Shown here: piece after piece, positions 1 to 12,731 of the stretch | Position numbering within the stretch: the first letter of the stretch is position 1 | How the letters are laid out: every line of letters begins with the position of its first letter | NCBI GenBank assembly: GCA_019912395.1 | Contig: JAIOIH010000050.1 | Span: forward strand, 1-52,650 | Direction of reading: 5' to 3' | Origin: Flavobacteriales bacterium | GTDB lineage: Bacteria > Bacteroidota > Bacteroidia > Flavobacteriales_F > PHOS-HE28 | Length of the DNA: 52,650 nt | The notes under the pieces: model-generated | The model's input: the letters and a program-made list of their open reading frames with translations, nothing else | Told to the model about the DNA's origin: nothing | The model's database searches: none | Translations under genes and position numbers: made by a program

Positions 1-74
1 CGTTTGAATTCTTCGCTGAAGTAGCGCATTTGACGTTCTGCAACTTCCCCCTTCACTTGGTCTCTTCGTGCCAT
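1..74 (-). CDS. N-terminal fragment of a putative transposase (OrfA-like)
   Basis: On the minus strand an ATG at 74 opens a frame that stays open to the window edge and encodes about 24 residues. The peptide is basic (MARRDQVKGE...) and ends in RYFSEEFKR. A (Y/F)(S/P)xEFK motif near the N-terminus is typical of the helix-turn-helix OrfA of IS3-like elements. Only the first codons are visible, so neither the family nor intactness can be judged. If right, an insertion sequence lies just left of the window. An unrelated DNA-binding protein is possible. Confidence 0.45.
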   Translation of the reverse strand, partial: MARRDQVKGEVAERQMRYFSEEFK

Positions 75-245
75 TTTTATCTAGGTTTGGGGAGTTGACA
101 TGTAACCTCCGAGCGGTCAATATATTCAGGCAAGCACAGGATGGTCCCTAATGCCTGTGGTCGTGGCTTGCTCGTGAACTCAGTGCAGACAGTGGGACTT
201 GGCTGCGAAGACCATGGATGCGCGAATGAATTGGCCAAGAGTCCT

Positions 246-270
246 GACAACGGACAACGGACAACGGACG
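246..270. repeat. Tandem GACAACG short repeat
   Basis: Three GACAACG units run head to tail and end two bases before the stop codon of the minus-strand permease gene. On the other strand the units read as TTGTC-CG-TTGTC. The same wording recurs at 5644-5666 inside the GT39 gene, so this is one copy of a dispersed repeat. The rest of 75-271 shows no gene. Confidence 0.6.
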
Positions 271-271
271 A

Positions 272-1939
272 CTAGCCAGCCCGCAGCTTACTATGCCTGC
301 GGCTATACAGGAAATACACCAGCAAGCCCAAGGCCATCCAGCCGAAGAAGACCTCCCAGCTGGCTGCGGGAATCTCTGTCATCAGGTAGGCGCAGCTGAG
401 CATGCCGATGCAGGGGATCAGCGAATAGCGCCTGCGGAACGTCTGCACCGCCGTGCCCAGCGCGAAAATGGCGAAGCCCGCCATCAGCACCGATTGTCGA
501 TCCAGATGCATGCTGCTGAAGGCCATCCACAAGCGCTCATGGTCGAGGTAATAGTAGGCCAAGACCAGCAGAGGTAGGAGGAAGCGGCCGTTGATGTAGG
601 GGATCTGGAAGCGCTTGCGGCCTTTGCTATCCAGCTTGCTCATCCGCGGGAGAAGAAGCACCCCACCGCAAACGAGCGTGAAGGCGAACAAGGTGCCGAT
701 GGACGTGAGGTCGGTGATGATGTCGCTCGGGGCAAAGAGCGCCGGAATACCCACGAGTACACCGGTAACGATGGTGGCGAAGGCCGGCGTGCCGAACTTG
801 CGATGCAGGTGCCCGAAGCGCGGCGGCAACAAGCCGTCGCGGCTCATGCTCATCCAGATGCGCGGTTGGCCCAGCTGGAACACCAGCAGCACACTGGTGG
901 CCGCGATCACCGCACCCACACTTATGGCAAATCCGAAGGCAGGCAGGTCCACCTTGTTGAATACGTATGCCAACGGATCCATCACGCCCTTGAACTCCGT
1001 GTAGGGCACCATACCTGTAAGCACCAGCGCCGTGATGCAGTATATCACCGTGCAGATCACCAGCGCATACATCATGCTTCGCGGCAGGTCCCGTTGCGGG
1101 TCCTTGCACTCCTCCGCCGTGGTGCTGATGGCATCGAAGCCGATGTAGGCGAAGAAGACCGCACTGACCCCGCGCAGTACACCGCCCATACCGTTGGGCA
1201 GAAAGGGCACATAGTTGGCCCCTTTGATGTACCACAGGCCCACCAACGCAACGGCACCAAGCAGCACCAGCTTCAGGATCACCATGCCGTTGGCGGCCTT
1301 CTTGCTTTCCTGAATGCCGATGTATACCAAGGCGGTCACGGCCACCACGATCAACAGTGCCGGAATGTTCATGATCACATGCCAGCCGCCGATCACCGGT
1401 GCGGTGGCCCAGGCCAGCCCCTCGGTGGATGCGCCCATCAGGGTCGCTTCGTCAAAGGCGGCCTTGGCGCTGAGCGGATCCGCCGTGAGCCATGTGGGCA
1501 GGTGGAGGCCGAACGCCGCCAGGATGTTGGTGAAATAGCTGCTCCATGAGATGGCCACCACCACGTTTCCGATGGCATATTCGAGGATCAATGCCCAGCC
1601 GATGATCCACGCCACCACTTCACCGAAGGCCACATAGCTGTACGTGTAGGCACTGCCGCTCACCGGTATGCGCCCGGCGAATTCCGCATAACAAAGTGCC
1701 GTGAAGCCACACACCACCGCCGTGATGATGAAGAGGAAGACCACACCCGGACCGCCCTCATAGGCCGCTGCCCCCACCGTACTGAAGATCCCCGCGCCGA
1801 TCACCGCCGCCACACCCATAAAGGTGAGGTCGCGCACGGTGAGGGTGCGTTTCATGCCCTGATGACCGTCCGCCTCCCGCTGCGCCTGGTCGCGCATGAT
1901 GCGTTCCACGGATTTTTTGCGGAAGAGAGGATTGGCCAT
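272..1939 (-). CDS. APC-family amino-acid permease (cationic amino acid transporter type)
   Basis: A 555-residue polytopic membrane protein of the amino acid/polyamine/organocation superfamily, predicted to move amino acids across the inner membrane by proton symport or exchange. The first helix carries VAAVIGAGIFSTVG, the unwound-helix substrate motif of the family, followed by the PGVV and Y-E-F-A-G-R-I-P segments and about twelve hydrophobic helices. FFAYIGFDAISTTAEE is typical of the CAT/YfnA subgroup. I start at the ATG at 1939 (MANPLFRKKS) because the 52 codons upstream in frame look like untranslated DNA. A TACTTTG box (1965-1959, minus strand) lies about 20 bp upstream. The substrate cannot be told from sequence. 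Confidence 0.9.
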   Translation of the reverse strand: MANPLFRKKSVERIMRDQAQREADGHQGMKRTLTVRDLTFMGVAAVIGAGIFSTVGAAAYEGGPGVVFLFIITAVVCGFTALCYAEFAGRIPVSGSAYTYSYVAFGEVVAWIIGWALILEYAIGNVVVAISWSSYFTNILAAFGLHLPTWLTADPLSAKAAFDEATLMGASTEGLAWATAPVIGGWHVIMNIPALLIVVAVTALVYIGIQESKKAANGMVILKLVLLGAVALVGLWYIKGANYVPFLPNGMGGVLRGVSAVFFAYIGFDAISTTAEECKDPQRDLPRSMMYALVICTVIYCITALVLTGMVPYTEFKGVMDPLAYVFNKVDLPAFGFAISVGAVIAATSVLLVFQLGQPRIWMSMSRDGLLPPRFGHLHRKFGTPAFATIVTGVLVGIPALFAPSDIITDLTSIGTLFAFTLVCGGVLLLPRMSKLDSKGRKRFQIPYINGRFLLPLLVLAYYYLDHERLWMAFSSMHLDRQSVLMAGFAIFALGTAVQTFRRRYSLIPCIGMLSCAYLMTEIPAASWEVFFGWMALGLLVYFLYSRRHSKLRAG

Positions 1940-1958
1940 GGGCGGTTCGGTGGACGGG

Positions 1959-1965
1959 CAAAGTA
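1959..1965 (-). promoter_or_regulatory. Putative -7 box of the permease gene
   Basis: TACTTTG on the minus strand matches the Bacteroidota -7 consensus TAnnTTTG and ends 19 bp before the chosen ATG. No well-spaced TTG -33 element is seen. Confidence 0.4.
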
Positions 1966-2138
1966 GGAAAAGGGCGGCAAGCCGAAACTTTTCCGGGCCG
2001 AACAAGGGGGGAGAAGCCCAGAAAGGAAGTTGGAGCCAGCTCACAAGTCGCCTACGCCTTCGGCAGGTCGCCCGGCTGGTTGCGGTTGCGGTCACATGCC
2101 GTATGGCCGGGAGGACCCACGCCAGCGGTGCGCTCGCC

Positions 2139-3689
2139 TTACTTCACCACTTGCACCGTAAGGCTTCCCTTGGGGGAAGAAATAGCGATGAGGTAGCTAC
2201 CCGATGGCAAGTCTTCAGCGAGAGCGATGGCTTGTTGATGCTCACCTGCTGCTTGCTTCTGCCCCTCAACGAAAGTCCTTATGGTCCTGCCCTGCATATC
2301 CAGCAGATGAATGGAGATGGTCTCGGCATGCGCCAACGTGTACTCCAGGGTTGCCAGCTTTTCGATCGGGTTCGGATAGATGAGTGGCGCGCTACGGGCG
2401 AGCGAGAGATCGATGATGCCGATGTCCAGGCCGGAGATATAACGGGCCACCGCGAAATCATTGGTGGTGCCGTCGTTCGATGATCCGGCCACTATGAGCT
2501 TCCCATCCGGCTGGATGGCGACTGAAGACCCGTATTCATCATCCGTTCCGAAGGCGGTGGTCACTTTGCCGTCATCGCTGAAGCCATTGTCGAGTGAACC
2601 ATCCGTGTTGTACCGGGCCAATGCGAGATCATAATTCGTGCCATTGAACGCGTCCCCGGCCACCAGGATCTTCCCATCCGGCTGAATGGCAACGGCATAT
2701 CCGTGGTCATCACCCGTTCCGAAAGCGGTGGTCACCTTACCGTCCATACCGAAGCTGTTGTCCAAGGTTCCATTCGTGTTGTAACGGGTCAATGCGAGAT
2801 CATCATCCGTACCGTTGGACGCGTATCCGGCCACTACGATCTTCCCATCCACTTGGATGGCGACCGCAGAACCGGACCCATCGCCCGTTCCGAAGGCGGT
2901 GGTCAGCTTGCCGTCAGCACTGAAGCTGTTGTCCAGGCTACCATCCGTGTTGTAACGGGCCAATGCGAGATCATCATCCGTGCCGTTGGACGCGTCTCCG
3001 GCCACCACGATCTTCCCATCCGGCTGGATGGCGACCGATCGTCCAATGTCATCACCCGATCCGAAGTCGGTGGTCACCTTGCCGTCACCACTGAAGCTGT
3101 TATCGAGCGTACCATCCGTGTTGTAACGGACTATGGCAAAATCAAGGTCTGTTCCGTTATCCGAGTTTCCGGCCACTACGATCTTCCCGTCCGGCTGGAT
3201 GGCGACCGACCGTCCGTAGTCATACAGCGATCCGAAGTCGGTGGTCACTTTACCATCAGCGCTGAAGCTGTTGTCGAGGGAACCATCCGTGTTGTACCGG
3301 GCTACAGCGAAGTCAAGGTCGTTGCCCGAGGCTCCAACTACTACGATCTTCCCGTCCGGCTGGATGGCGACTGCCTGTCCCCGGTCAGGATCCGTTCCGA
3401 AATCGGTGGTCACTTTACCGTCCACACTGAAGCTGTTGTCGAGCGCACCATCCGTGTTGTAGCGGGCCAACGCGAAATCAAAGTCCGAGCCGTTGGACGA
3501 GTGTCCGGCCACTATGGTCTTTCCGTCCGGCTGGATGCCGACCGACTGTCCTCGGTCATTTCCCGCTCCGAAGTCGGTGGTCACTTTGCCGTTGGTACCG
3601 AAGGTGCCATCAAGCGATCCGGGTTGCGCGAATGTTGTTGCTCCTAGTGCGAGGAACAGAGCGGTCAGGGTTGTAGTAACGTTTCTCAT
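2139..3689 (-). CDS. Secreted delta-60 repeat protein with T9SS type A sorting domain
   Basis: A 516-residue exported protein. A signal peptide (MRNVTTTLTALFLALGATTFAQ) is followed by seven copies of a ~57-residue repeat of the pattern DGKVTT(D/A)FG...(S/A)VAIQPDGKIVVAG...(A/V)RYNTDG(S/T)LDNSF. This is the delta-60/beta-propeller type repeat seen in large bacterial surface proteins. The last ~80 residues (LIYPNPIEKLATLEY ... GSYLIAI...VQVVK) are a T9SS C-terminal sorting domain, so the protein is expected to be secreted through the outer membrane and perhaps anchored there. Seven repeats would close one propeller-like ring. The ligand or role is unknown. The repeats are also alike at DNA level and could recombine. 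Confidence 0.88.
   Translation of the reverse strand: MRNVTTTLTALFLALGATTFAQPGSLDGTFGTNGKVTTDFGAGNDRGQSVGIQPDGKTIVAGHSSNGSDFDFALARYNTDGALDNSFSVDGKVTTDFGTDPDRGQAVAIQPDGKIVVVGASGNDLDFAVARYNTDGSLDNSFSADGKVTTDFGSLYDYGRSVAIQPDGKIVVAGNSDNGTDLDFAIVRYNTDGTLDNSFSGDGKVTTDFGSGDDIGRSVAIQPDGKIVVAGDASNGTDDDLALARYNTDGSLDNSFSADGKLTTAFGTGDGSGSAVAIQVDGKIVVAGYASNGTDDDLALTRYNTNGTLDNSFGMDGKVTTAFGTGDDHGYAVAIQPDGKILVAGDAFNGTNYDLALARYNTDGSLDNGFSDDGKVTTAFGTDDEYGSSVAIQPDGKLIVAGSSNDGTTNDFAVARYISGLDIGIIDLSLARSAPLIYPNPIEKLATLEYTLAHAETISIHLLDMQGRTIRTFVEGQKQAAGEHQQAIALAEDLPSGSYLIAISSPKGSLTVQVVK
2400..3640 (-). repeat. Seven tandem ~171-bp coding repeats
   Basis: Each unit carries nearly the same block encoding AIQPDGKIVVAG, separated by variable loops (GSGDDIG, GTDPDRG, GSLYDYG and so on). 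The variation sits mainly in the loops between strands, where repeat number or loop content could change by recombination. Confidence 0.75.
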
Positions 3690-3880
3690 GGTCTGTTACT
3701 TGATGAATGCTAATCTAAAGGAAAGTTGCCCTATATCGCTGAATACGCGGACAAGTTCATGTGGACTATGCGTGAGGTTTCCGTGCGACCAATTCTCCAC
3801 CAATTCTGGCGCGAACGTCACGCGCCCTACCGGCACACAAACTCGTAGACCAGGACGTGACCGTTCGCGTGATCAAAAGT

Positions 3881-4786
3881 TCATTGTTTTCCTTGATTCT
3901 TTTGATATCGCATCCTAAGATTCTCCGCGAGTGCTAAGAAAAGAGAATATTTTGTTCGATACTCCCAGTCCGGTTCCACTCCGGTGCTTCTTTCGAGCAC
4001 TGTGTATTTGTCACCTCTCCGCACTTCGATCAGAAAGGGCTTATTCAGGTTGGTCTTTGTGAAGTACGTGACCTCTTCATTCTCTGCAGCGTGCAGGGAT
4101 TCAATAAAGGCCTTGGCATCCCTCCTGTTCAACCTGAAGTCAAGATCGAGCGTGGTCCGACATTTCATTGAAGAGTCGATCATGGTTTCGATGTATCTGA
4201 TCTTCGGGTCGGCATCATCATCCAGGTCGATCTCATAGAACTGAATCTTAACAGGCCCGTGTAAACCTCCGTCGATCCGAGTTAATCTGATCACATCGCT
4301 CGCGGGCACCTTGGAAATGTCTTGGAGATGAAGGCTGTCCTGTGCCGTTGTATAGATCAGCTCGTTGACAAAAGGAGTCAGATCATATTCTTCCTCGTAC
4401 GTATTGATGAAGCTTTCCGGTCCGGTAATGAATGGCATGAACCTGCTCGTCGAGCGAATTTCATTGGCCGTCCAGTGGAAGGACGGTTTATAGGTTTTTA
4501 CTTCCAGCGTGTCTTTCCTTTTATGTTCGCCAACAATCGGGCTCATGACCATTGAAAGCGAATCATCTACATGGTCAAATCCTTGGCCGAAATAGAAGAG
4601 ACCATCCGGTTCCCTGAACAATGTATAGTCGTAGATTGAGTCGGCAATGTTGAAATAGACCCTTGTCATCATAACAGGCCAGTCGAAGATCTTTGGCTTG
4701 CCATTCTCTAACACTGCCCTGTACACCTGTCCCTCGGAGGAGAAGCAGATGCTGCAGAACAGCACACATGTGGTCAGCTTTCTCAT
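3881..4786 (-). CDS. Hypothetical secreted protein
   Basis: A 301-residue protein that I do not recognise. It starts at the ATG at 4786 with a short signal peptide (MRKLTTCVLFCSICFSSEGQ) whose cysteines do not form a clear lipobox. The mature part is acidic and mixed, with no membrane segment. The upstream 29 in-frame codons are probably untranslated. It lies between the delta-60 gene and the GT39 gene on the same strand, but the gaps (about 190 and 58 bp) do not force co-transcription. Codon use is AT-richer than its neighbours (runs such as TTTGATATC), which fits recent acquisition or weak selection. Confidence 0.7.
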   Translation of the reverse strand: MRKLTTCVLFCSICFSSEGQVYRAVLENGKPKIFDWPVMMTRVYFNIADSIYDYTLFREPDGLFYFGQGFDHVDDSLSMVMSPIVGEHKRKDTLEVKTYKPSFHWTANEIRSTSRFMPFITGPESFINTYEEEYDLTPFVNELIYTTAQDSLHLQDISKVPASDVIRLTRIDGGLHGPVKIQFYEIDLDDDADPKIRYIETMIDSSMKCRTTLDLDFRLNRRDAKAFIESLHAAENEEVTYFTKTNLNKPFLIEVRRGDKYTVLERSTGVEPDWEYRTKYSLFLALAENLRMRYQKNQGKQ

Positions 4787-4844
4787 CAGGACTGAATGAC
4801 AGCAATAAACTGAGACGTCATTGACATGACGGCAGCCCCGGTAC

Positions 4845-6611
4845 TCAAGGTGCTTCCCGCTTCCAGAAAACAAAGCCGTTCTTCCGCCCGATCTCCTTCA
4901 GCGTTGGTATCGCGGCCACTTCCTCCGCGCTGGTCACCTTGCACACCACATAAACCGGCCGGTCCACATCGCCATGCAGGAGCCATTCTTCATCATGCGC
5001 ACGCGGGTCCGTAATGGGCGGTACGCGGGAATAGAAAAGCTGCGCGTAGCTCTTGTAGTTCTTGGTGATCACGTAGCACTTCTCTCCTTGGCGCTGCTGG
5101 AAGAACTCCACGGCGGCGCGCTGGGAATAGCCTTCGATGTTGTTGATGAAGTAGTACAGCGTGATGGTGACGAAGAGCGCTGTGCCACCGAACAGGGAGA
5201 TGATGCCGCTCCGGTATTCTGCCCTGGAGAAAAAGCGGTGGCCGAGATAAAGGATCACCACCATCCATACGCCCGCCAGGGCTTCCCAGCCCGTCCAGTG
5301 TACGTCCGCCATCAGATTGCCCTGGGCGAAAGCATCGTTCTTCAGCAAAGGCGCAAGCAGTTCCGGGTGCATGCCGAGGTAGGGCAACAGTAAGGTGACC
5401 AGCGCGAAGAGCGTTCCGAGGCCGCCCATCAGCAATCGCGACCAGAGCGTGGCCCTGCCGCCGTTCCACAGGTGCTCCAGTTGCAGTGCGGCAAGGAAGG
5501 TGAGCGGGAAGTACGCGAGGCTGCTGTAGTGGACGATCTTGGTCTGGACGAGGCTGAAGAGGATGAGGACCACCCAGAAGAGAATGAGCATCCACTTTCT
5601 GTAGTTGTCAGCCCCCCCCGCCAAAGCGCTTTGGCGACGGCGGGTTGTCAGTTGTCCGTTGTCAGGCTGCTGCCGACCAGCTGCTTGCGCCCCCATGTCA
5701 GTTCGAGCGCAGTCGAGAACCGACGTGGGGGCGGATGCAGCTGGTTTCAACATCTCCTGCAAGGCGAAAACCGATGCCGGGAAGCAGCCGATCAGGAGGA
5801 CTACGAAGTGATAGCCGATAAAACCGCCGTGGCCGGCATCTTCCGAGGAGAGCATGGCCACTTGGCGCCAGAAGAAGGCCGTGATGAAAGTGGGTCCGTT
5901 CTGCAGCAGGTCCGCACCGAACCAGATACCGGGGACGATGAGCAGCACGGCGAACATCAGCAGGACGCGTGGGATGGAAACGTAGAGCCTGAACCGGTTC
6001 ATCACCCAATAGACCAGCGCACCGAGTGCTGGAATGAGGATGCCGACCGGGCCTTTGGTGAGCACGGCCAATCCGAGCCAGAGCCCGGCCAAGGCGGCGG
6101 CGATGTTCTTCTGCCGGGAGGAAAGACCTGCGCTGGCAGGCGTGTCGCTCATGCGGATGAAGGCCAGGAAACCAAGGAAGATGAAGAGGTTGAACCACGG
6201 GTCGATGATCCCGCTGCGGAAGTAGAGGTGCGGCAGGATGGAGCCGATGTAGGCCAGCACCCAGAGCAACCCGAACAACCGACCGCGCATGCGCATACCG
6301 ATCCGGAAGAGGACGAGCAAGGTGATGATGCCGCAGAGGGCGTTCGGTAAGCGCGCAGCGAACTCGTTCACGCCGAAAGCCGACATGCTGCTGGCCTGCA
6401 TCCACATGAAGAGCGGTGGCTTTTCATAGAAGGGTACGTAACCGATCTGCGGTTGCAGCCAGTTGTTCGTGGCCAGCATCTCCCGGGCGATCTCCGCGAA
6501 ATTGATCTCGTCCCAATCGAAGAGGTGTACGGCGCCCAGACCGGGGATGAAGAGCAGCGCGGTAATAAGCGCGATCAGCAGCTGGACCTGTAGCTTGGAT
6601 AGCTTCCGCAT
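4845..6611 (-). CDS. GT39/ArnT-like lipid-linked glycosyltransferase carrying an inserted repeat
   Basis: A 588-residue GT-C membrane glycosyltransferase. The first periplasmic loop has the family signature LFDWDEINFAEIAREM (acidic metal/catalytic residues) followed by YEKPPLFMWMQ (the KPP motif of ArnT/PMT_2 proteins), then about ten helices and a soluble C-terminal domain. It should move a sugar from a polyprenyl-phosphate donor to a lipid or envelope acceptor. The start at 6611 (MRKLSKLQVQL) is chosen because upstream codons lie in repeat DNA. Residues about 286-335 are low-complexity, hydrophilic and unlike the family; they coincide with palindromic repeat DNA at 5604-5744 that keeps the frame open. 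The flanking helices (FPASVFALQ and WMLILFWVVLILFSLVQTK) are normal, so the gene is probably still functional. Confidence 0.88.
   Translation of the reverse strand: MRKLSKLQVQLLIALITALLFIPGLGAVHLFDWDEINFAEIAREMLATNNWLQPQIGYVPFYEKPPLFMWMQASSMSAFGVNEFAARLPNALCGIITLLVLFRIGMRMRGRLFGLLWVLAYIGSILPHLYFRSGIIDPWFNLFIFLGFLAFIRMSDTPASAGLSSRQKNIAAALAGLWLGLAVLTKGPVGILIPALGALVYWVMNRFRLYVSIPRVLLMFAVLLIVPGIWFGADLLQNGPTFITAFFWRQVAMLSSEDAGHGGFIGYHFVVLLIGCFPASVFALQEMLKPAASAPTSVLDCARTDMGAQAAGRQQPDNGQLTTRRRQSALAGGADNYRKWMLILFWVVLILFSLVQTKIVHYSSLAYFPLTFLAALQLEHLWNGGRATLWSRLLMGGLGTLFALVTLLLPYLGMHPELLAPLLKNDAFAQGNLMADVHWTGWEALAGVWMVVILYLGHRFFSRAEYRSGIISLFGGTALFVTITLYYFINNIEGYSQRAAVEFFQQRQGEKCYVITKNYKSYAQLFYSRVPPITDPRAHDEEWLLHGDVDRPVYVVCKVTSAEEVAAIPTLKEIGRKNGFVFWKREAP
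5604..5744. repeat. Compound palindromic repeat inserted in frame in the GT39 gene
   Basis: Three parts can be read. Copies of GTTGTCAG lie at 5604, 5644 and 5658. A perfect 18-bp palindrome CGCCAAAGCGCTTTGGCG lies at 5619-5636. A ~68-bp imperfect palindrome at 5677-5744 is bounded by CCAGCTGC and GCAGCTGG, with a near-palindrome TTCGAGCGCAGTCGAGAA in the middle. The TTGTC units match the repeat at 246-270. The whole block lies inside one open reading frame without a stop. Confidence 0.8.
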
Positions 6612-6639
6612 GAGCGGCCCGAAGGTAGGGGTGGGATTT

Positions 6640-6850
6640 AACCGCAACGGCGCTACGACGCAAAGGGATCGCAACGGATCTTTACCGCAAAGGACTGCTC
6701 GCCGAGAGAGGCTGCCTTCGGCAGTTAAGCCCGCAAGGAATTTTAGGGAAGGGTTGACTGAGACGACGCTGGCCACGGATGCAATGCTCCTCCTGTACTC
6801 CTTTACCTCCTTCGCGCCTCCACCTCTGTGTCGCTGTGCCTCCGTGGTAA
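6640..6850. repeat. Intergenic mosaic of short repeats
   Basis: The gap between the GT2 and GT39 genes is built of repeat pieces. A CCGCAACGGCGC...GCAACGG block (6641-6677) resembles copies at 17355 and 47723. A small hairpin, CTGCCTTCGGCAG, is present. A block at about 6806-6850 reads on the minus strand as ACCACGGAGGCACAGCGACACAG and resembles blocks at 7641 and 49071. No gene is seen. Confidence 0.6.
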
Positions 6851-6863
6851 AAGCGCTTGTGGA

Positions 6864-7610
6864 TCACCGCTTCCCCAGCAGCTTCCACCCCATGATCCCC
6901 GTACGGGCCAGGAAGTACCGCCACGACACGTTGAGCACACCGAAACCATACGTCATGCTACGGCTGAAATTGATGGAGCTGGCCTCGTCAAAATACTTCG
7001 TTGGGCAGGTGACCTCGGCGATCTCGAAGCGGTTCCAGAAGATCTGGCCGATCATCTGGTTGTCGAAGACGAAATCATCGGAGCAGTGATGGTACTCGCA
7101 TTTCCGAAGCACATCAGCGGAGTAGGCACGGTACCCGGTGTGGTACTCGCTCAGCTTTTCGCCCATGAGGATGTTCTGCGTGAGCGTGAGCAGCCGGTTG
7201 GCGATGTACTTGTACATGGGCATGCCGCCTTTCAACGCACCGCCGCCAAGGATCCTGGAGCCGAAGACCACCGGGTAGACCCCGTTTCCAATAATGGACA
7301 CCATGCCATGAATGAGCTTCGGCGTGTACTGGTAATCCGGATGCAGCATCACCACGATGTCGCCGCCCAGTTCCAAGGCCTTGTCATAGCAACTCTTCTG
7401 GTTGCCGCCGTAGCCGGTGTTCACCTCGTGCACCACGATGTGCTTGATCCCGATGCGCGTCGCCTCCTCCACCGTGCCGTCCGGGCTCTTGTCATCCACC
7501 AGCACCACGTCGTCCACGATGTCGAAGGGGATCTCGTCGTAGGTCTGCTTCAGGGTGTGCTCCGCTTTGTACGCCGGAAGCACCACGATGACTTTCTTGC
7601 CTTGGAACAT
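6864..7610 (-). CDS. Family 2 glycosyltransferase
   Basis: A 248-residue cytoplasmic GT-A glycosyltransferase. The N-terminus MFQGKKVIVVLPAYKAE is the nucleotide-sugar binding start of GT2 enzymes. VDDVVLVDDKSPDGT gives the first conserved Asp pair, and VVMLHPDYQYTP occupies the position of the metal-binding DxD. GSRILGG and the YHTGYRAYS segment are typical of the dolichyl/undecaprenyl-phosphate sugar synthase-like branch. It probably charges a polyprenyl phosphate or adds a sugar to an envelope glycan. A GT39 enzyme that would use such a donor is encoded just downstream on the same strand. The 33 in-frame codons above 7610 overlap a CACGGAG-type repeat and are excluded. Confidence 0.88.
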   Translation of the reverse strand: MFQGKKVIVVLPAYKAEHTLKQTYDEIPFDIVDDVVLVDDKSPDGTVEEATRIGIKHIVVHEVNTGYGGNQKSCYDKALELGGDIVVMLHPDYQYTPKLIHGMVSIIGNGVYPVVFGSRILGGGALKGGMPMYKYIANRLLTLTQNILMGEKLSEYHTGYRAYSADVLRKCEYHHCSDDFVFDNQMIGQIFWNRFEIAEVTCPTKYFDEASSINFSRSMTYGFGVLNVSWRYFLARTGIMGWKLLGKR

Positions 7611-7640
7611 CCGGGCAAAGATGGCGATGAGGCGCTTTAC

Positions 7641-7676
7641 ACCACCGAGGCGCGGAGACTCCGAGGAACACGGAGA
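7641..7676. repeat. CACGGAG-type short intergenic repeat
   Basis: ACCACCGAGGCGCGGAG...AACACGGAG lies just upstream of the GT2 start. It belongs to the same loose family as 6806-6850 and 49071-49119. It produces a spurious N-terminal extension of the GT2 reading frame. Confidence 0.5.
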
Positions 7677-7736
7677 ATAATCCAAGCGGCACATTCGAGG
7701 AAGTCCCACAGACTCACCACTTGACCACGCAAGGCT

Positions 7737-8642
7737 TCACCTCGCCCGTGTGCCCAGGTTCACCATGTACACGCCGAGCAGGATCACGCCCACCATCAGT
7801 AGCTGCATGGGAAGCAATGTTTCACCGTCCAGCACACCCCAGCCAATGGCCACGATGGGCATGAGGTAGGTGACCGATGAGGCCCAGACGGCCGAGGTAC
7901 GCTTGATGAGCGCATTCCAGAGAATGAGCGAAATGCCCGTGCCGAAGGCGGCCAGCACCGCCACGTAGCCCAGAGCATGCCATGCATGGGGATTGGTGGC
8001 CAAGGTGTGCGGCAATCCGGTCACGAAGATCCCGATAAGCCCCAACGGCCCTACGATGCTGATGGCCAGGACCGAGGTGGCCGCAGCCGGGAGCATATAG
8101 AGCCAGTGCTTGATGATGTTCCCGCTGAACCCATAGCACAAGGCCCCCAGGATGGGTAATGCTGCATATACGCTCCACTGCGGCAGGTCGTCGCCATGGC
8201 GGTAGATGATGGTGCCCACCGCCCCGACCAGGCCGAGCACTACGCCCACCACATTGATGCCTCGTACTCGCGTACGGAACAGCAGCACGCCCACCACCAA
8301 GGTGAAGAGCGGTGCCAAGCTGTTGAGCATTCCGGCCAGGGAACTATCGATCCGGCTCTGCGCGAATGCGAACAGATAGGCCGGTATACCATTGCCCAAA
8401 AGGGCCGTCCCCACCAAGGGTTTCCAGTGGGCGAAGATCAACTTGGCATACTTGAACAGCAGCGGGCTGAGCACCAGCCATGCGATGAAGAGCCGGGCGC
8501 TGGCAAGCTGTGCCGGTGAAAGGGCGGGCTCACCGTGCTGGTACAGGCCGCGCTTCATCAGGATGAAGGAGCTGCCCCACACCAGGGATAGCACCGCCAG
8601 CAGGAGCCATTTGACCCGATCGTTGGTGGTGGTGCTTTCCAT
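7737..8642 (-). CDS. EamA/DMT-superfamily permease
   Basis: A 301-residue membrane protein with ten hydrophobic segments arranged as two EamA repeats. The first starts WLLLAVLSLVWGSSFILMKRGL, and the second begins near ALPILGALCYGFSGNIIKHWL. The WGSSF and GSLAPLFT-like (LNSLAPLFTLVVGVLLF) motifs are typical of drug/metabolite exporters of the RhaT/YdcZ-like group. The substrate is not predictable. The gene is followed 126 bp downstream by the GT2 gene on the same strand. Confidence 0.88.
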   Translation of the reverse strand: MESTTTNDRVKWLLLAVLSLVWGSSFILMKRGLYQHGEPALSPAQLASARLFIAWLVLSPLLFKYAKLIFAHWKPLVGTALLGNGIPAYLFAFAQSRIDSSLAGMLNSLAPLFTLVVGVLLFRTRVRGINVVGVVLGLVGAVGTIIYRHGDDLPQWSVYAALPILGALCYGFSGNIIKHWLYMLPAAATSVLAISIVGPLGLIGIFVTGLPHTLATNPHAWHALGYVAVLAAFGTGISLILWNALIKRTSAVWASSVTYLMPIVAIGWGVLDGETLLPMQLLMVGVILLGVYMVNLGTRAR

Positions 8643-8711
8643 GCCCGCTGGCGAAGGGCGCGAAGGTAGACGGCGGCGAAGCCCCTCCTGCTGCGGTCAA
8701 TGCAAAGCGGT

Positions 8712-8719
8712 TATTTTTG
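8712..8719 (+). promoter_or_regulatory. Putative -7 box of the HMA lipoprotein gene
   Basis: TATTTTTG matches TAnnTTTG and lies 17 bp before the ATG at 8737, giving a leader of about 10 nt. No TTG at -33 spacing is visible. Confidence 0.45.
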
Positions 8720-8736
8720 TACCAGAATTCCTCACC

Positions 8737-9240
8737 ATGAAAAACCAGCTTTTCATCCTATCCGTTCTTCTTCTTGTGGCGTGCGGTCAGGGTTCTTCCG
8801 CAGACCAGGCGGCCGTGGTGGCGGACCGTACCGTGAAGGAGGTGACCATCACCGAAGGTGAACCGATGGCCACGGCGGACATGAGCATCGGCGGGATGAC
8901 CTGCCAGATGATGTGCGCGAACATGATCAAAAGCACCTTGGCCAAGGTACCCGGTGTTACCAGCGCGGAGGTGGTATACGCCGATGGCGATGAGATCGGC
9001 CATGCCAAGGTGACCTACGACCCCGCGAAAGTGGATGATGCGCAACTGGTGAGCGCCGTGCAGGCCTTGGCGGACGGACAATACACGGTGTCGTCCATCG
9101 CCATTGTGAAGGAGGTGAAGCAGGCTCCCTCCGCGTCCAGGAGGGTGGTGAAGGAGAATGACGAGGTATCCGCCTCGATCATTCCCGAGGTGCCCATGCC
9201 CAACTTGGTGGCCACGCTGCTGGCCTTGGTGCGTATCTGA
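8737..9240 (+). CDS. Heavy-metal-associated (HMA) domain lipoprotein
   Basis: A 167-residue lipoprotein: signal peptide MKNQLFILSVLLLVACG with lipid-attachment Cys16, then an HMA ferredoxin-like fold. The metal loop is GGMTCQMMC (Cys56 and Cys60), so the spacing is CxxxC rather than the CxxC of copper chaperones. It is followed by KSTLAKVPGVTSAEV and HAKVTYDPAKVDDAQLVSAVQAL, the helix and strand expected of HMA domains. It probably binds a soft metal (Cu, Zn or Hg) at the periplasmic face; the spacing may change the preference. The long ORF upstream of 8737 in the same frame is excluded because it crosses the promoter. It converges with the thioredoxin-like gene. Confidence 0.85.
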   Translation: MKNQLFILSVLLLVACGQGSSADQAAVVADRTVKEVTITEGEPMATADMSIGGMTCQMMCANMIKSTLAKVPGVTSAEVVYADGDEIGHAKVTYDPAKVDDAQLVSAVQALADGQYTVSSIAIVKEVKQAPSASRRVVKENDEVSASIIPEVPMPNLVATLLALVRI

Positions 9241-9304
9241 TCCCGCTTCCCGCTCTACCGGATATTCCGCGTCGGCAATTGCCCCTCGGCTGCGGTTTGC
9301 CAGA

Positions 9305-9943
9305 TCATCGGCGCGCAATTCCTTCCAGCAGGGTCAGGAATTCCCGCTGCACGGAAGCGCCCCGGTCCTTGGCATACCAGGCATGCACCTGCGCGTAGAT
9401 CTCCTCCTTCGGAAGCTGCTGCGCTTCCGGCAATTCCTTGTTGCGCCACACCATGTCCTGGGCCGCTTGCGGGCGCGGCCCCCAGGTGAACAGCTCCTTT
9501 CCCCCGGGATCAAAGGCGATCAGCTTGGGGATGCTTCGGCCGCCATGCGTGAGGTACTGGTCGATCAGCGGCATTTGCTCATCGCGGAGCAGCACACGCA
9601 TGTGGATGTTCGGTGCAGCAGCCGCCATCATCCCGATCACGGTCATCAGCTGTGAACTGTCGCCACACCACGGCTCGGTGATCACCAGCCAGGTCATTTC
9701 AGTCGCTTGGGCCAATGCCTCGCTCACCTCGGGTAGCAGTTTAACCGTCTTCTCGTTCCGCACGGTCCGCGTCAGATTGAGCCTGGTGTACGCCACCATC
9801 TCCTCCCCTTGATCGGCACCGGTGGTGCGGCCCTCGCGCACCAAGCGCTCCAGCAACTCCCGGTAGTCCGCCGGGTCCATGGCGACCTCTGCCGCATGGA
9901 TAAGGTCTGCAGGTGTCGCGCCCTGACCGCTGGACCTGCTCAT
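9305..9943 (-). CDS. Thioredoxin-like protein with monothiol WCGDS motif
   Basis: A 212-residue cytoplasmic protein of the Thioredoxin_9 type. The strand WLVITEPWCGDSSQL holds Cys93 but Ser96 in place of the second Cys. SIPKLIAFDPGGKELFTWGPRP provides the cis-Pro (IPK) and the following strands. In this family the single Cys may act in glutathione-linked or structural roles; no direct function is established here. Its ATG at 9943 overlaps the TGA of the upstream lipoprotein gene (ATGA), so translation is likely coupled and it is the last gene of the def group. An internal start at Met22 cannot be excluded. Confidence 0.82.
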   Translation of the reverse strand: MSRSSGQGATPADLIHAAEVAMDPADYRELLERLVREGRTTGADQGEEMVAYTRLNLTRTVRNEKTVKLLPEVSEALAQATEMTWLVITEPWCGDSSQLMTVIGMMAAAAPNIHMRVLLRDEQMPLIDQYLTHGGRSIPKLIAFDPGGKELFTWGPRPQAAQDMVWRNKELPEAQQLPKEEIYAQVHAWYAKDRGASVQREFLTLLEGIARR

Positions 9944-10509
9944 GGAGCGCTGGACGCGTGGGCGTCCGTGCTGTCGGGGTTCATCTCCTCGAACCGCTTC
10001 ATCAGCTCCTCATCGCTGTACTTGAGGTTCTCGATCATCTGCTCGGCGTCCTTGGCGAAGGGATGGTCGGGGAACTTCGCGATCACCGTTCGGTATGCGG
10101 TCTCGGCCTCGCCTTTCTGCCGCAGGCCATTGTCGATGGTGAAGGCTTTCAGGTAGTACGTGTCGGGGATCTTGCGCCACTTGGAAAAATCGCGGATGAT
10201 GCGGTCGTACAGGGCGATGCCGCCTTGGGGATCGCCCAGTGTGCTCTTTATGTTGGCGCCCCGGAAGAGGTATTCGGCGCTGAGCGAGTCGCGTGGATGC
10301 ACCTTGGCATAGAGCAGGTACACGTCCAGCAGGGCCTGTGCGCCCTTGCGGTCCATGCCCGGCTTGGCATACAGGGAATCCTCCATGGCGCGGACGCGTT
10401 CCGCCGCGATGGCATCGCCGCCCTCACTTCCGTCCTCGTCCGTTCCGCCGCAGGCATACAGGAGGGCCAGGCTCAGCAAAGCGGCAGGGATCATCAGGTA
10501 CTTCCTCAT
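9940..10509 (-). CDS. TPR-type lipoprotein
   Basis: A 189-residue lipoprotein (MRKYLMIPAALLSLALLYACGG, lipid Cys20) with two to three TPR-like helical pairs, for example DVYLLYAKVHPRDSLSAEYLFRGANI and KGEAETAYRTVIAKFPDHPFAKDAEQMIENL. The pattern resembles the periplasmic part of BamD/YbgF-type proteins, but the size and order do not identify it as either. It overlaps def upstream and the thioredoxin-like gene downstream by 4 bp each (ATGA), making a tight three-gene unit. Confidence 0.8.
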   Translation of the reverse strand: MRKYLMIPAALLSLALLYACGGTDEDGSEGGDAIAAERVRAMEDSLYAKPGMDRKGAQALLDVYLLYAKVHPRDSLSAEYLFRGANIKSTLGDPQGGIALYDRIIRDFSKWRKIPDTYYLKAFTIDNGLRQKGEAETAYRTVIAKFPDHPFAKDAEQMIENLKYSDEELMKRFEEMNPDSTDAHASSAP

Positions 10510-11087
10510 TTCACGGGGGTAAATCTCATTTTGTATTTCACGTCCGTCTTGCCCATGCTGATGTCGCGGAGCTTGCCCTTCAACAGGCGCTTGCGCAAAG
10601 GTGGCAACAGTTCGGTGAAGAGGATGCCGTCCAAATGGTCATGCTCGTGCTGGAGCACGCGTGCGGCAAAGCCCTCGAACTCCTCTTCATGCTCCTTGAA
10701 ATCCTCATCCATGTATTGCATCACGATCCTCGGCTGGCGCTCCACGTCCTCCCGGATGCCCGGTATGCTCAGGCAGCCTTCCTCGAACAGCCACTGCTCC
10801 CCTTCCTCCTCCACGATGTAGGGATTGATGAAGACCTTCTTGAAATCCTTCAGGTGCGCATCCTCCGTGGGATTGCCGTCCTCATCCTCCGCGAAGGGCG
10901 CGCAGTCCACGATGAACAGGCGGATGCTTTCACCGACCTGCGGGGCGGCCAAGCCAACGCCGCTGGCGGCATACATGGTCTCGTACATGTCGGCGATCAA
11001 CTGCTTGAGGCCGGGATGGCCGGGTTCGATGTCCCGGGCCACTTTCTTGAGCACGGGATCACCGTAGGAACGGATGGGGAGGATCAT
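10506..11087 (-). CDS. def: Peptide deformylase
   Basis: A 193-residue enzyme that removes the N-formyl group from nascent proteins. All three metal-enzyme motifs are present: GVGLAAPQVG (residues 43-52), EEGCLS with metal ligand Cys105, and QHEHDHLDG with ligands His147 and His151 and catalytic Glu148. The length is usual for type I deformylases. The acidic stretch CAPFAEDEDGNPTEDAHL is a family-typical insertion in Bacteroidota. The stop overlaps the start of the TPR lipoprotein (ATGA). Upstream, a GATCAG-type repeat separates it from ruvX. Confidence 0.97.
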   Translation of the reverse strand: MILPIRSYGDPVLKKVARDIEPGHPGLKQLIADMYETMYAASGVGLAAPQVGESIRLFIVDCAPFAEDEDGNPTEDAHLKDFKKVFINPYIVEEEGEQWLFEEGCLSIPGIREDVERQPRIVMQYMDEDFKEHEEEFEGFAARVLQHEHDHLDGILFTELLPPLRKRLLKGKLRDISMGKTDVKYKMRFTPVK

Positions 11088-11123
11088 TAGAGAGCGCGAA
11101 TTTACGGCGGGAGCGCGGGGTGC

Positions 11124-11160
11124 CGATCAGATGATCAGAAAATGAGACGATCAGATGATG
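11124..11160. repeat. GATCAG-family repeat between def and ruvX
   Basis: The block reads CGATCAGATGATCAGAAAAT followed by GAGACGATCAGATGATG. The core GATCAGATGATCAGAAAATG recurs at 11674-11695, inverted at 11834-11880, and in parts at 31721-31790 and 14529-14551. Confidence 0.75.
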
Positions 11161-11258
11161 TTCGTCCGCCCGCGCTTGCAGCGCGAGGCGTGCGAGGTTC
11201 GCGCCTGTGGCGCAAACATGCCAGAAGCAGTGGTCGGACTTTCCGCACTCAATCCGGT

Positions 11259-11672
11259 TCACCGTCGGTGGCGGTCCATCCAACCTTGGAGCATGATCGT
11301 GGCGCTGATCCGGTCCACGGTGCCCTTGTCGCGACGAGCTTTCCTTCCGATACCGCTGTCCAGCATGGTCCGCTGGGCGATCACACTGGTGAAACGCTCG
11401 TCCACCGCCTCCACCCATTGCTTGGGGAATTGCCGCTTCAGCTCCGCGATGAACAGCCGCACGTTCGCGGTGACGTCCGTGGGCGTACCGTCGAGGTTGC
11501 ACGGCACGCCCACCACGAAGCCCTCCACGGATTCCTTGGCCGTGTACCGTTTGAGAAAGGTCATCAGCTCGGTGGAAGGCACGGTATCCAGCGCACTGGC
11601 GATGATGCCCGCCGGGTCCGTAACGGCGAGGCCGGTGCGCTTGAGGCCGAAGTCGATGGCGAGAACACGCAT
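11259..11672 (-). CDS. ruvX: Putative pre-16S rRNA nuclease / Holliday junction resolvase (YqgF)
   Basis: A 137-residue RNase H-fold protein. MRVLAIDFGLKRTGLAVTD carries the first catalytic Asp (D7) and the G-x-K-R-x-G motif. VVGVPCNLDGTP is the G-x-P segment, VDERFTS contains the second acid, and GTVDRISATIMLQ the last Asp. In E. coli YqgF matures the 5' end of 16S rRNA; Holliday resolution is an older proposal. It heads the minus-strand group leading to def. The next start on the plus strand is dapD, divergent across 225 bp of repeats. Confidence 0.93.
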   Translation of the reverse strand: MRVLAIDFGLKRTGLAVTDPAGIIASALDTVPSTELMTFLKRYTAKESVEGFVVGVPCNLDGTPTDVTANVRLFIAELKRQFPKQWVEAVDERFTSVIAQRTMLDSGIGRKARRDKGTVDRISATIMLQGWMDRHRR

Positions 11673-11673
11673 T

Positions 11674-11880
11674 GGATCAGATGATCAGAAAATGGAATGC
11701 CGTCCTCATTGGAGGGCGACAGGGAACGCTGATGACGCTGATTTGATCGTTGCCTGAAAGCTTTTCGGTTGCCGGCTTTGCATTGATTCGAACGGTTCTG
11801 CAAAGGTCGGTACTTATCGCAGAGTCGACCTACCGATCGTCCGATCTTCTGATCATCTCATTTTCTGATCGTCTGATCGG
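11674..11880. repeat. Inverted GATCAG repeats flanking the ruvX-dapD gap
   Basis: GGATCAGATGATCAGAAAAT begins right at the ruvX start (11674-11695), and an extended inverted copy ends 17 bp before dapD (11834-11880, TCTGATCATCTCATTTTCTG). Between them is an AACGCTGATGACGCTGATTT block related to 15121-15158. Both genes must therefore be transcribed from, or through, repeat DNA. Confidence 0.75.
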
Positions 11881-11897
11881 CTGCCCATCTTTGTACC

Positions 11898-12731
11898 ATG
11901 CACGAATTGATCGAAAAGGCTTGGGACGACCGCACGATGCTCGCGGATGAGGAAGTGGTACTCGCCATCGAGGGAGTGATCGAACAATTGGATCGCGGTG
12001 AGATACGAGTGGCGGAACCTGTACCCGGGATCCCGGGTCAGGCCCGGAATGACGAGGCGTGGCACGTGAACGAATGGGTGAAGAAGGCCGTGCTGCTGTA
12101 TTTCCCCATCCGCAAGATGATCACCATGGAGGCCGGTCCGCTGGAGTTCCATGACAAGATCCCCTTGAAGCACCGCTATGCCGAGCTCGGCGTGCGCGTG
12201 GTGCCCCATGCGATCGCACGCCACGGCAGCTACTTGGCGCCCGGTGTGATCCTGATGCCGAGCTACGTGAACATCGGCGCCTACGTGGACGAAGGCACCA
12301 TGGTGGACACCTGGGCCACCGTGGGCAGCTGCGCGCAGATCGGCAAGCATGTACATCTCAGCGGTGGAGTTGGAATCGGAGGCGTATTGGAACCCGTGCA
12401 GGCCGCGCCGGTGATCATCGAGGATGGTGCCTTTATCGGATCGCGGGCCATTGTGGTGGAAGGCGTGCGCATCGGTCGCGAAGCCGTGCTGGGCGCGAAC
12501 GTGGTGCTCACGGCCAGCACGCGCATCATCGATGTTTCCGGCCCCGAGCCGAAGGAGATGAAGGGCTATGTGCCTCCGCGCTCAGTGATGATCCCCGGGA
12601 CATTGCCGAAGCAATTCCCCGCCGGCGAATACGGTGTGCCCTGTGCGCTGATCATCGGCCTACGCAAGGAAAGCACGGACAGGAAGACCTCCCTGAACGA
12701 AGCCCTGCGTGAACACAATGTGGCGGTATAG
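11898..12731 (+). CDS. dapD: 2,3,4,5-tetrahydropyridine-2,6-dicarboxylate N-succinyltransferase with a loop insertion
   Basis: A 277-residue enzyme of the succinylase branch of lysine/meso-diaminopimelate synthesis, working as a trimer in the cytoplasm. The left-handed beta-helix is clear: VLMPSYVNIGAYVDEGTM, WATVGSCAQIGK and LSGGVGIGGVLEP are near-invariant, followed by the C-terminal IIGLRK region. The N-terminal helical domain ends EIRVAEP, and then VPGIPGQARNDEA (about residues 42-53) is inserted before WHVNEWVKKAVLL. E. coli DapD has only a short turn there. The insert is encoded by palindromic repeat DNA at 12024-12058. The rest of the protein is intact, so it is probably active. The CNNM gene begins 3 bp after the stop. 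Confidence 0.95.
   Translation: MHELIEKAWDDRTMLADEEVVLAIEGVIEQLDRGEIRVAEPVPGIPGQARNDEAWHVNEWVKKAVLLYFPIRKMITMEAGPLEFHDKIPLKHRYAELGVRVVPHAIARHGSYLAPGVILMPSYVNIGAYVDEGTMVDTWATVGSCAQIGKHVHLSGGVGIGGVLEPVQAAPVIIEDGAFIGSRAIVVEGVRIGREAVLGANVVLTASTRIIDVSGPEPKEMKGYVPPRSVMIPGTLPKQFPAGEYGVPCALIIGLRKESTDRKTSLNEALREHNVAV
12024..12058. repeat. Palindromic repeat inserted in frame in dapD
   Basis: A perfect palindrome, CCCGGGATCCCGGG (12024-12037), is followed by TCAGGCCCGGAATGACGAGG. This wording, read as PGIPGQARNDE, is one I know as a common dispersed repeat in many bacterial genomes. It adds about eight to ten residues to a loop of the protein. Confidence 0.75.

Follow-up and report, generated by a model that had tools for sequence, protein, structure and literature searches.

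A loop in a Flavobacteriales membrane glycosyltransferase probably built from three families of short dispersed repeats

How does a gene for a membrane glycosyltransferase come to encode some 50 of its residues in repeat DNA and still stay open from end to end? The question arises in the window, by which we mean the whole 52,650-nucleotide stretch of Flavobacteriales DNA analysed here; it stems from an uncultured organism related to Flavobacterium and lies on contig C19 of its own genome, G000 (4.13 Mb in 87 contigs). A sequence-only reading of this DNA had seen a single palindromic repeat in the gene; the repeat insertion stands, but it is a composite of three families rather than one element, with TTGTCNG heptamers (family B), an 18-bp palindrome lying between them (family A) and a 68-bp hairpin (family C). 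We consider it highly probable that the loop is a composite of these short dispersed repeats, which entered one after another.

Table 1. Coordinates in the window of the insert, its component repeats, a second heptamer array and the host gene.
Feature	Position	Strand	Remarks
Whole repeat-derived insert	5604..5744		residues 290-336; after helix 279-288; reaches into modelled helix 319-354
Family C, 68-bp hairpin	5677..5744	plus	head conserved, outer stem locus-specific; coding strand reads PAASAPTSVLDCARTDMGAQAAG
Family C, conserved core	5696..5724	plus	TGTCAGTTCGAGCGCAGTCGAGAACCGAC
Family B, three TTGTCNG heptamers	5645..5665	plus	antisense to host gene
Lone outlying TTGTCAG heptamer	5605..5611	plus	beyond palindrome A, on the opposite side from the array
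Family A, perfect 18-bp palindrome	5619..5636		CGCCAAAGCGCTTTGGCG, then ACGGCGGG
Second family B array	246..264	minus	right after the stop of minus-strand ORF 272-2095, sense as that gene
Host gene	4848..6611	minus	GT-C membrane glycosyltransferase, 588 aa; PMT in Pfam, ArnT-like fold

The TTGTC units, the perfect 18-bp palindrome and the imperfect 68-bp palindrome, bounded by CCAGCTGC...GCAGCTGG, were all recovered as previously described, and the frame stays open across the whole insert, in agreement with the claim that repeat DNA had entered the gene and its frame had survived. By coordinates, the repeat-coded residues are shifted from the suggested 286-335 to the span in Table 1. The insert's best inverted repeat reaches a score of 20; none of 2000 dinucleotide shuffles exceeds 14, and the best inverted repeats in the remainder of the host gene score 8 and 9. 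Folded as single-stranded DNA, hairpin C lies well beyond chance (z = -7.33, equalled by 0 of 200 shuffles), and the stretch 5604-5656, which holds the 18-bp palindrome, folds more weakly (z = -2.16, equalled by 8 of 200). No known RNA family reached its gathering score in positions 1-12000 of the window, and a search for plasmid or phage carriage of the repeats gave no match at E 0.001.

The host ORF runs on the minus strand from an ATG taken at 6611 to a stop at 4845-4847. Its product scores above the cut-offs of the Pfam profiles PF02366 (PMT) and PF13231 (PMT_2), and ArnT structures 5f15 and 5ezm are the top Foldseek matches to its AlphaFold model (E 6.6e-17 and 8.7e-17, respectively); profile and fold together place it among the PMT/ArnT members of GT-C. 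The previous designation of a GT39 enzyme is only a rough label, since the fold is nearest to ArnT, though Pfam gives PMT. The nearest named public records to the gene come from metagenome-assembled Flavobacteriales. Elsewhere in the window, a minus-strand ORF of 516 aa (2139-3689) carries tandem repeats of the type GKVTTDFG...IQPDGKIVVAG. The host model, built from 31 sequences, has a mean pLDDT of 89.2, and the proposed loop position between helices is borne out by it: the insert follows one helix and comes before the end of the next, the first part of which is itself insert. Values below 50 occur solely at residues 296-310; the ten-residue blocks spanning 291-330 average 54, 45, 53 and 58, and three further blocks stand at 66 to 70 (251-270 and 351-360). 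These low values are weak evidence of disorder, since a long loop is found in just 3 of the 31 aligned rows.

Alignment across the genus places the insertion among its relatives. The host gene has a match in 41 of 45 genus genomes, and loop lengths were read from 30 loci, that of G000 included. The loop region measures 16-19 residues in 20 of these, so that the insert is absent from most homologues read, and 24-60 in the other ten; at 53, the window loop is about 36 residues above the usual length. In a wider alignment of 30 homologues, clear expansion of the loop is seen in two (L088 and L089, apparently identical with G034 and G032). When the loop columns are left out of tree building, eight of the ten expanded sequences group in one clade (SH-aLRT 99) whose members are all expanded, with G040 and G037 placed elsewhere; the minimum is three changes. 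The frame is intact in all ten expanded loci, with no stops.

What fills these expanded loops differs from species to species. Of the eight clade members, all but G042 carry heptamer-like strings such as GACAACCAACAAC, and hairpin C is common to G000 and G023. Palindrome A occurs in G000 alone among the loci read, with CCCTGAGCGCAGTCGAAGGGG at the matching place in G023. A further palindromic sequence, read SGPCMHPLPQGPLRETAEG, is common to the loops of G033 and G042, and the loop of G030 contains a GGCCCCTCCCCC..GGAGAGGGG stretch (TPGPSPKERG). Close homologues with the same loop in different DNA had been thought to speak against an insertion; such homologues exist, and since their loops are expanded by different repeat DNA, we read the loop as a recurrent landing site rather than the insertion as imaginary. 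From the 30 loci read, we infer that a heptamer array would have entered first, in the ancestor of the eight-species clade, followed by hairpin C in the common ancestor of G000 and G023. The last arrival would have been palindrome A, in G000, with G023 taking a different repeat at that place. The composite would have survived in that the loop was a tolerant site and the frame was left open.

The three families are dispersed well beyond this gene, as the sequence-only reading had anticipated. A search of G000 with the 141-bp insert gave at least 60 matches among those listed at E <= 10, the weakest of them at chance level, with 40 of 78 candidates scored. The heptamer pair TTGTCNGTTGTC matches 77 times in G000 (37+40, overlapping matches and the window counted) against 3 for the reversed control, and three-unit heptamers are present in 24 of the 45 genus genomes. 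Palindrome A, allowing one mismatch, is found at eight places in G000 including the window (control 0) and in eight of the 45 genomes. The 20-mer of C, allowing two mismatches, has seven matches in G000 and is present in six of the 45; a looser pattern of the C head (up to three mismatches) has 25 matches in G000, the window included, against 3 for its control. A heptamer array adjoins A at four of the ten A-like sites printed (the window, C37:21122, C81 and C11), with none seen at the other six.

Many heptamer arrays share a place and an orientation. Of 52 arrays in G000, 25 begin in sense, no more than 25 bp past the stop of a coding-like ORF that shares their strand. The mirrored arrangement, with an antisense ORF ending no more than 25 bp from the far side, occurs at none; random positions drawn from these loci gave the sense arrangement 78 times in 4000. 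No such stop was found for the other 27. In this count, inverted pairs and one split array were treated as separate arrays, and arrays too near the start of a locus were excluded. A second set of heptamer loci, drawn with a single exception from other genomes, shows a weaker tendency (7 of 31 in sense and 1 in antisense, against a control of 76 in 4000). Sense heptamers after stop codons point to a strand-specific process or to selection on gene 3' ends. Four contigs of G000 (C29, C60, C62 and C66, at loci L197, L233, L234 and L239) terminate in a shared sequence, at least 70 bp long, that follows a heptamer array, which suggests a collapsed larger repeat.

The glycosyltransferase is one of several unrelated genes that carry these repeats in frame. 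Eight of nine C copies (at most one mismatch) lie in frame in ORFs, namely those of IleRS, PheS, TsaC, SufE, an A2M-like gene (twice), a 2-oxoacid oxidoreductase subunit and the window gene; the ninth (L203) sits in a short, poorly coding ORF. The names rest on NCBIfam matches at E <= 1e-10 (isoleucine-tRNA ligase, PheS, threonylcarbamoyl-AMP synthase, SufE/CsdE and 2-oxoacid oxidoreductase beta subunit). TsaC and PheS pass the curated NCBIfam cut-off, which is missed by IleRS (a partial ORF, 617 vs 621.4 bits), SufE and the 2-oxoacid subunit; in the last, C stands at the N-terminus. The two A2M-like copies, L200 and L204, are 1.9 kb apart, and the open frame at L204 runs for 2118 codons; we take the host to be A2M-like, and the NCBIfam scan of L200 gave no match. 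Heptamers are in frame in MiaB (two sites), FdhD and ArgS, all above an NCBIfam cut-off, and in a geranylgeranyl-reductase-like gene just below one. When PheS, SufE and TsaC are aligned with solved structures, their inserts coincide with gaps or with segments left unaligned; in ArgS the insert adjoins an eight-residue gap.

Relatives either lack these inserts or have other repeats in the same loops. At the first A2M-like site, C is present in one of 30 loci, that of G000 (38 genomes matched; 18 loci compared as DNA and 12 as protein only). In PheS, a recognisable C stretch is found in G000 alone among 30 loci, some of the others having longer loops; the stretch in G023, with CTTGTC...GACAAG ends, may be a decayed copy. 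G023 is without C at IleRS, SufE and both A2M-like sites, and its TsaC retains sequence resembling the left half of C, so that the TsaC site is not cleanly empty. By our reading of the printed sequences by eye, the IleRS loop is filled in six of 30 loci, with C in G000 and hairpins of other kinds in G034, G033, G018, G006 and G024. Read in the same way, the second MiaB loop holds inverted heptamer arrays or variants in nine of 30, one row (L333) stopping short of the loop. There, L324 (G042) and L339 (G030) have a TTCGTGG-like heptamer in both inverted arms, and pairing is thereby kept. In the first MiaB loop, L334, L325, L349 and others of several species have a period-8 tandem repeat, GATCAGAC, read RSDDQTIR.

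Family C gives the best view of how such a repeat might spread. All nine copies have TGTC to the left of the head, and their stems differ between loci and match within each locus: complementarity of a copy's own arms averages 5.8, compared with 1.7 for the 72 cross-pairs (highest 7), and 0 of 3002 permutations of the arms reach the observed own-arm sum, even though two copies score low (L205, 2; L206, 3). The minimum-energy fold of the head is a 4-bp stem with a 12-nt loop in most copies folded, and the centroid inner stem is 3 bp. Six other copies, folded with their surroundings, range from z = -0.97 (L206, equalled by 36 of 200 shuffles) through -1.89 (L203) to -3.64 (L201). By pattern matching, three of the nine copies (L199, L205 and L206) have a further 5' half of C next to them, and none has an additional 3' half. 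In the glycosyltransferase loop, the inner stem on the plus strand is CATGTC/GACGTG (with one G.T) in G000 and CTTGTC/GACAAG in G023; both sides have changed and pairing is retained. At the A2M-like site, the left arm consists of host codons for VLFP that are conserved in near relatives, and the right arm, GGGGGGAAAG, is the inverse of the left and is absent from the relatives printed as DNA. This is the one convincing and clean case of a host-derived arm. Host-derived arms at every C site were considered and rejected, given that neither arm is clearly host-derived at IleRS or SufE and that PheS gives no clear picture. In alignments of the C-bearing sites with G023, no target-site duplication was noticed by eye.

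On the strength of the matched locus-specific stems, the one arm copying host DNA and the duplicated 5' half-copies of C, we tentatively propose that movement might occur by replication-linked copying of single-stranded hairpins (template switching), possibly aided in trans by a tyrosine (Y1) transposase; other routes together are likelier. Somewhat more speculatively, the C head (about 18-20 nt, TTCGAGCG.AGTCGAGAA, with TGTC and GAC shoulders) might enter a gene and have its outer stem then written by inverted copying of the host flank, so that arms would match within each locus. Combined with heptamer arrays and further hairpins, this would turn the same loops of essential enzymes into lasting landing sites, at which the genus keeps generating and replacing repeat-coded loops. 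The repeats themselves would be non-autonomous passengers, neutral or slightly harmful. Selection after insertion, which had been suggested from the loop position, may have acted; what is seen are surviving positions only.

The alternative that survives best, though we regard it as rather unlikely, is a REP/RAYT system in the strict sense, in which A or C would be REPs mobilised by the genome's own Y1 transposases (seven Y1_Tnp matches, six above the cut-off). The coexistence of short palindromes and Y1 transposases in one genome does resemble REPIN/RAYT systems (PMC3116915). The TGTC at one end of all nine C copies likewise recalls CGTC-type REPs, which are on record from Bacteroidetes and other groups, TGTC variants included (PMC3733652). 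The same source gives CGTC REPs stems of 8-9 bp and loops of 4-5 nt, unlike C with its variable stems and, in most copies, its 12-nt loop. In REP/RAYT systems the transposase gene is flanked by the same palindrome, whereas the exact patterns of A, B and C are missing from the seven Y1_Tnp loci (about 3 kb each, about 1.5 kb on each side), and the clear REP-type transposase gene, L009 (G000:C35:28226-28567, Y1_Tnp), has CGACCCC..GGGGTCG palindromes of another family on both sides. On this exact-pattern search of seven loci, the Y1/RAYT genes were rejected as the mover of A, B or C.

Local slippage, by which native GACAAC-like codons at the loop end expanded into heptamers and hairpins arose by local inverted duplication, would dispense with dispersed elements altogether. 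Native-like ends such as GACAACTAC do adjoin the array, the extra 5' half-copies of C resemble local copying, and one C arm copies host DNA. The same heptamer, 18-bp palindrome and C head, however, turn up in many unrelated parts of the genome, where their reversed patterns give 0 to 3 matches, and these dispersed copies largely refute slippage as the whole explanation and leave it improbable, although arms and array length may still be shaped by it. We consider it equally improbable that the loop inserts were selected for an added function, for example as an interaction surface or a regulatory mRNA hairpin: expansion in all eight members of one clade and the compensated C stem of G000 and G023 are in keeping with function, but the variation of the repeats in sequence and length among relatives argues against a conserved one. 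An assembly or binning artefact of metagenome-assembled genomes, which the 87 contigs and the difficulty of assembling palindromes might invite, is very improbable given the unbroken frames of all ten expanded glycosyltransferase loci, the C insert in a second genome (G023) and expanded loops in genomes of few contigs, G033 (4) and G037 (7).

A composite of dispersed repeats, as we favour here, has precedents of several kinds, and in-frame intragenic insertion of REPs and Rickettsia palindromic elements (RPEs) is already published. RPEs are palindromic repeats present in many copies, in frame within unrelated conserved protein genes, and one RPE-bearing gene product was shown to be translated and active (PMC2229807; PMC10969869). 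The sequence-only reading had likened the insert to them. The behaviour agrees, with in-frame copies in unrelated conserved protein genes, and the TGTC end of C resembles the CGTC in which some short RPEs terminate (PMC3733652). The long RPE type, however, is 105-146 bp with terminal inverted repeats, whereas C is 68 bp and the 141-bp insert is a composite; what we describe, in a Bacteroidota genus, is a conserved-head hairpin with a locus-specific stem, plus heptamers and a second palindrome. The comparison, drawn by description, is thus right for behaviour, and membership in an RPE family would be putative at most. Intragenic GTAG/CGTC REPs (O. terrae, R. conorii, Thauera and others) are short hairpins within coding regions, including those of tRNA synthetases, and often occur as dimers or groups (PMC3733652).

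The heptamers in turn recall the TAACTGA repeats of Beggiatoaceae, Cyanobacteria and Bacteroidetes, tandem 7-mers treated in PMC4679880. Read from the opposite strand, TTGTCAG gives CAACTGA, which differs from TAACTGA by one base, and Table 3 of that paper includes the translations QLTTDN and SVVSCQL; the unit here is TTGTCNG rather than tandem TAACTGA. In the Beggiatoaceae genome most of the repeats precede start codons, unlike the 25 of 52 arrays here that begin just past stops and those that lie within conserved enzymes. The set from F. litoralis (Bacteroidetes) has the same heptamer placement and orientation as found here (PMC4679880).

A limited literature search found no earlier report on the repeats of this group. 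What is new is that unrelated repeats have recolonised the same loops across the genus, that C stems match within a locus and vary from one locus to another, and that heptamer arrays begin, in sense, directly past stop codons. Protein-coding palindromes, described so far in Rickettsia and in scattered cases of REPs, are thereby extended to a Bacteroidota genus, in which 45 comparable genomes make the gain, replacement and tolerance of repeat-coded loops traceable on a tree. The matched locus-specific stems provide a testable handle on the spread of tiny hairpins without a known transposase.

The small dispersed repeats (SDR) of Nostoc are reportedly hairpins of 21-27 nt, often lying within heptamer arrays and some nested in their own copies, and the insert is like them by this description. 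Among relatives of C in G000, intergenic arrays of iterated TGTCATGTCGAGCG half-elements, for which an integron-like reading may be entertained, occur at L388 (contig C42), L389 (C77) and L390 (C37), in which several half-elements are followed by a common stretch of the CGTTCAATGCAGGACCTTTCATG type. These arrays possibly represent a cassette-like or self-nesting repeat.
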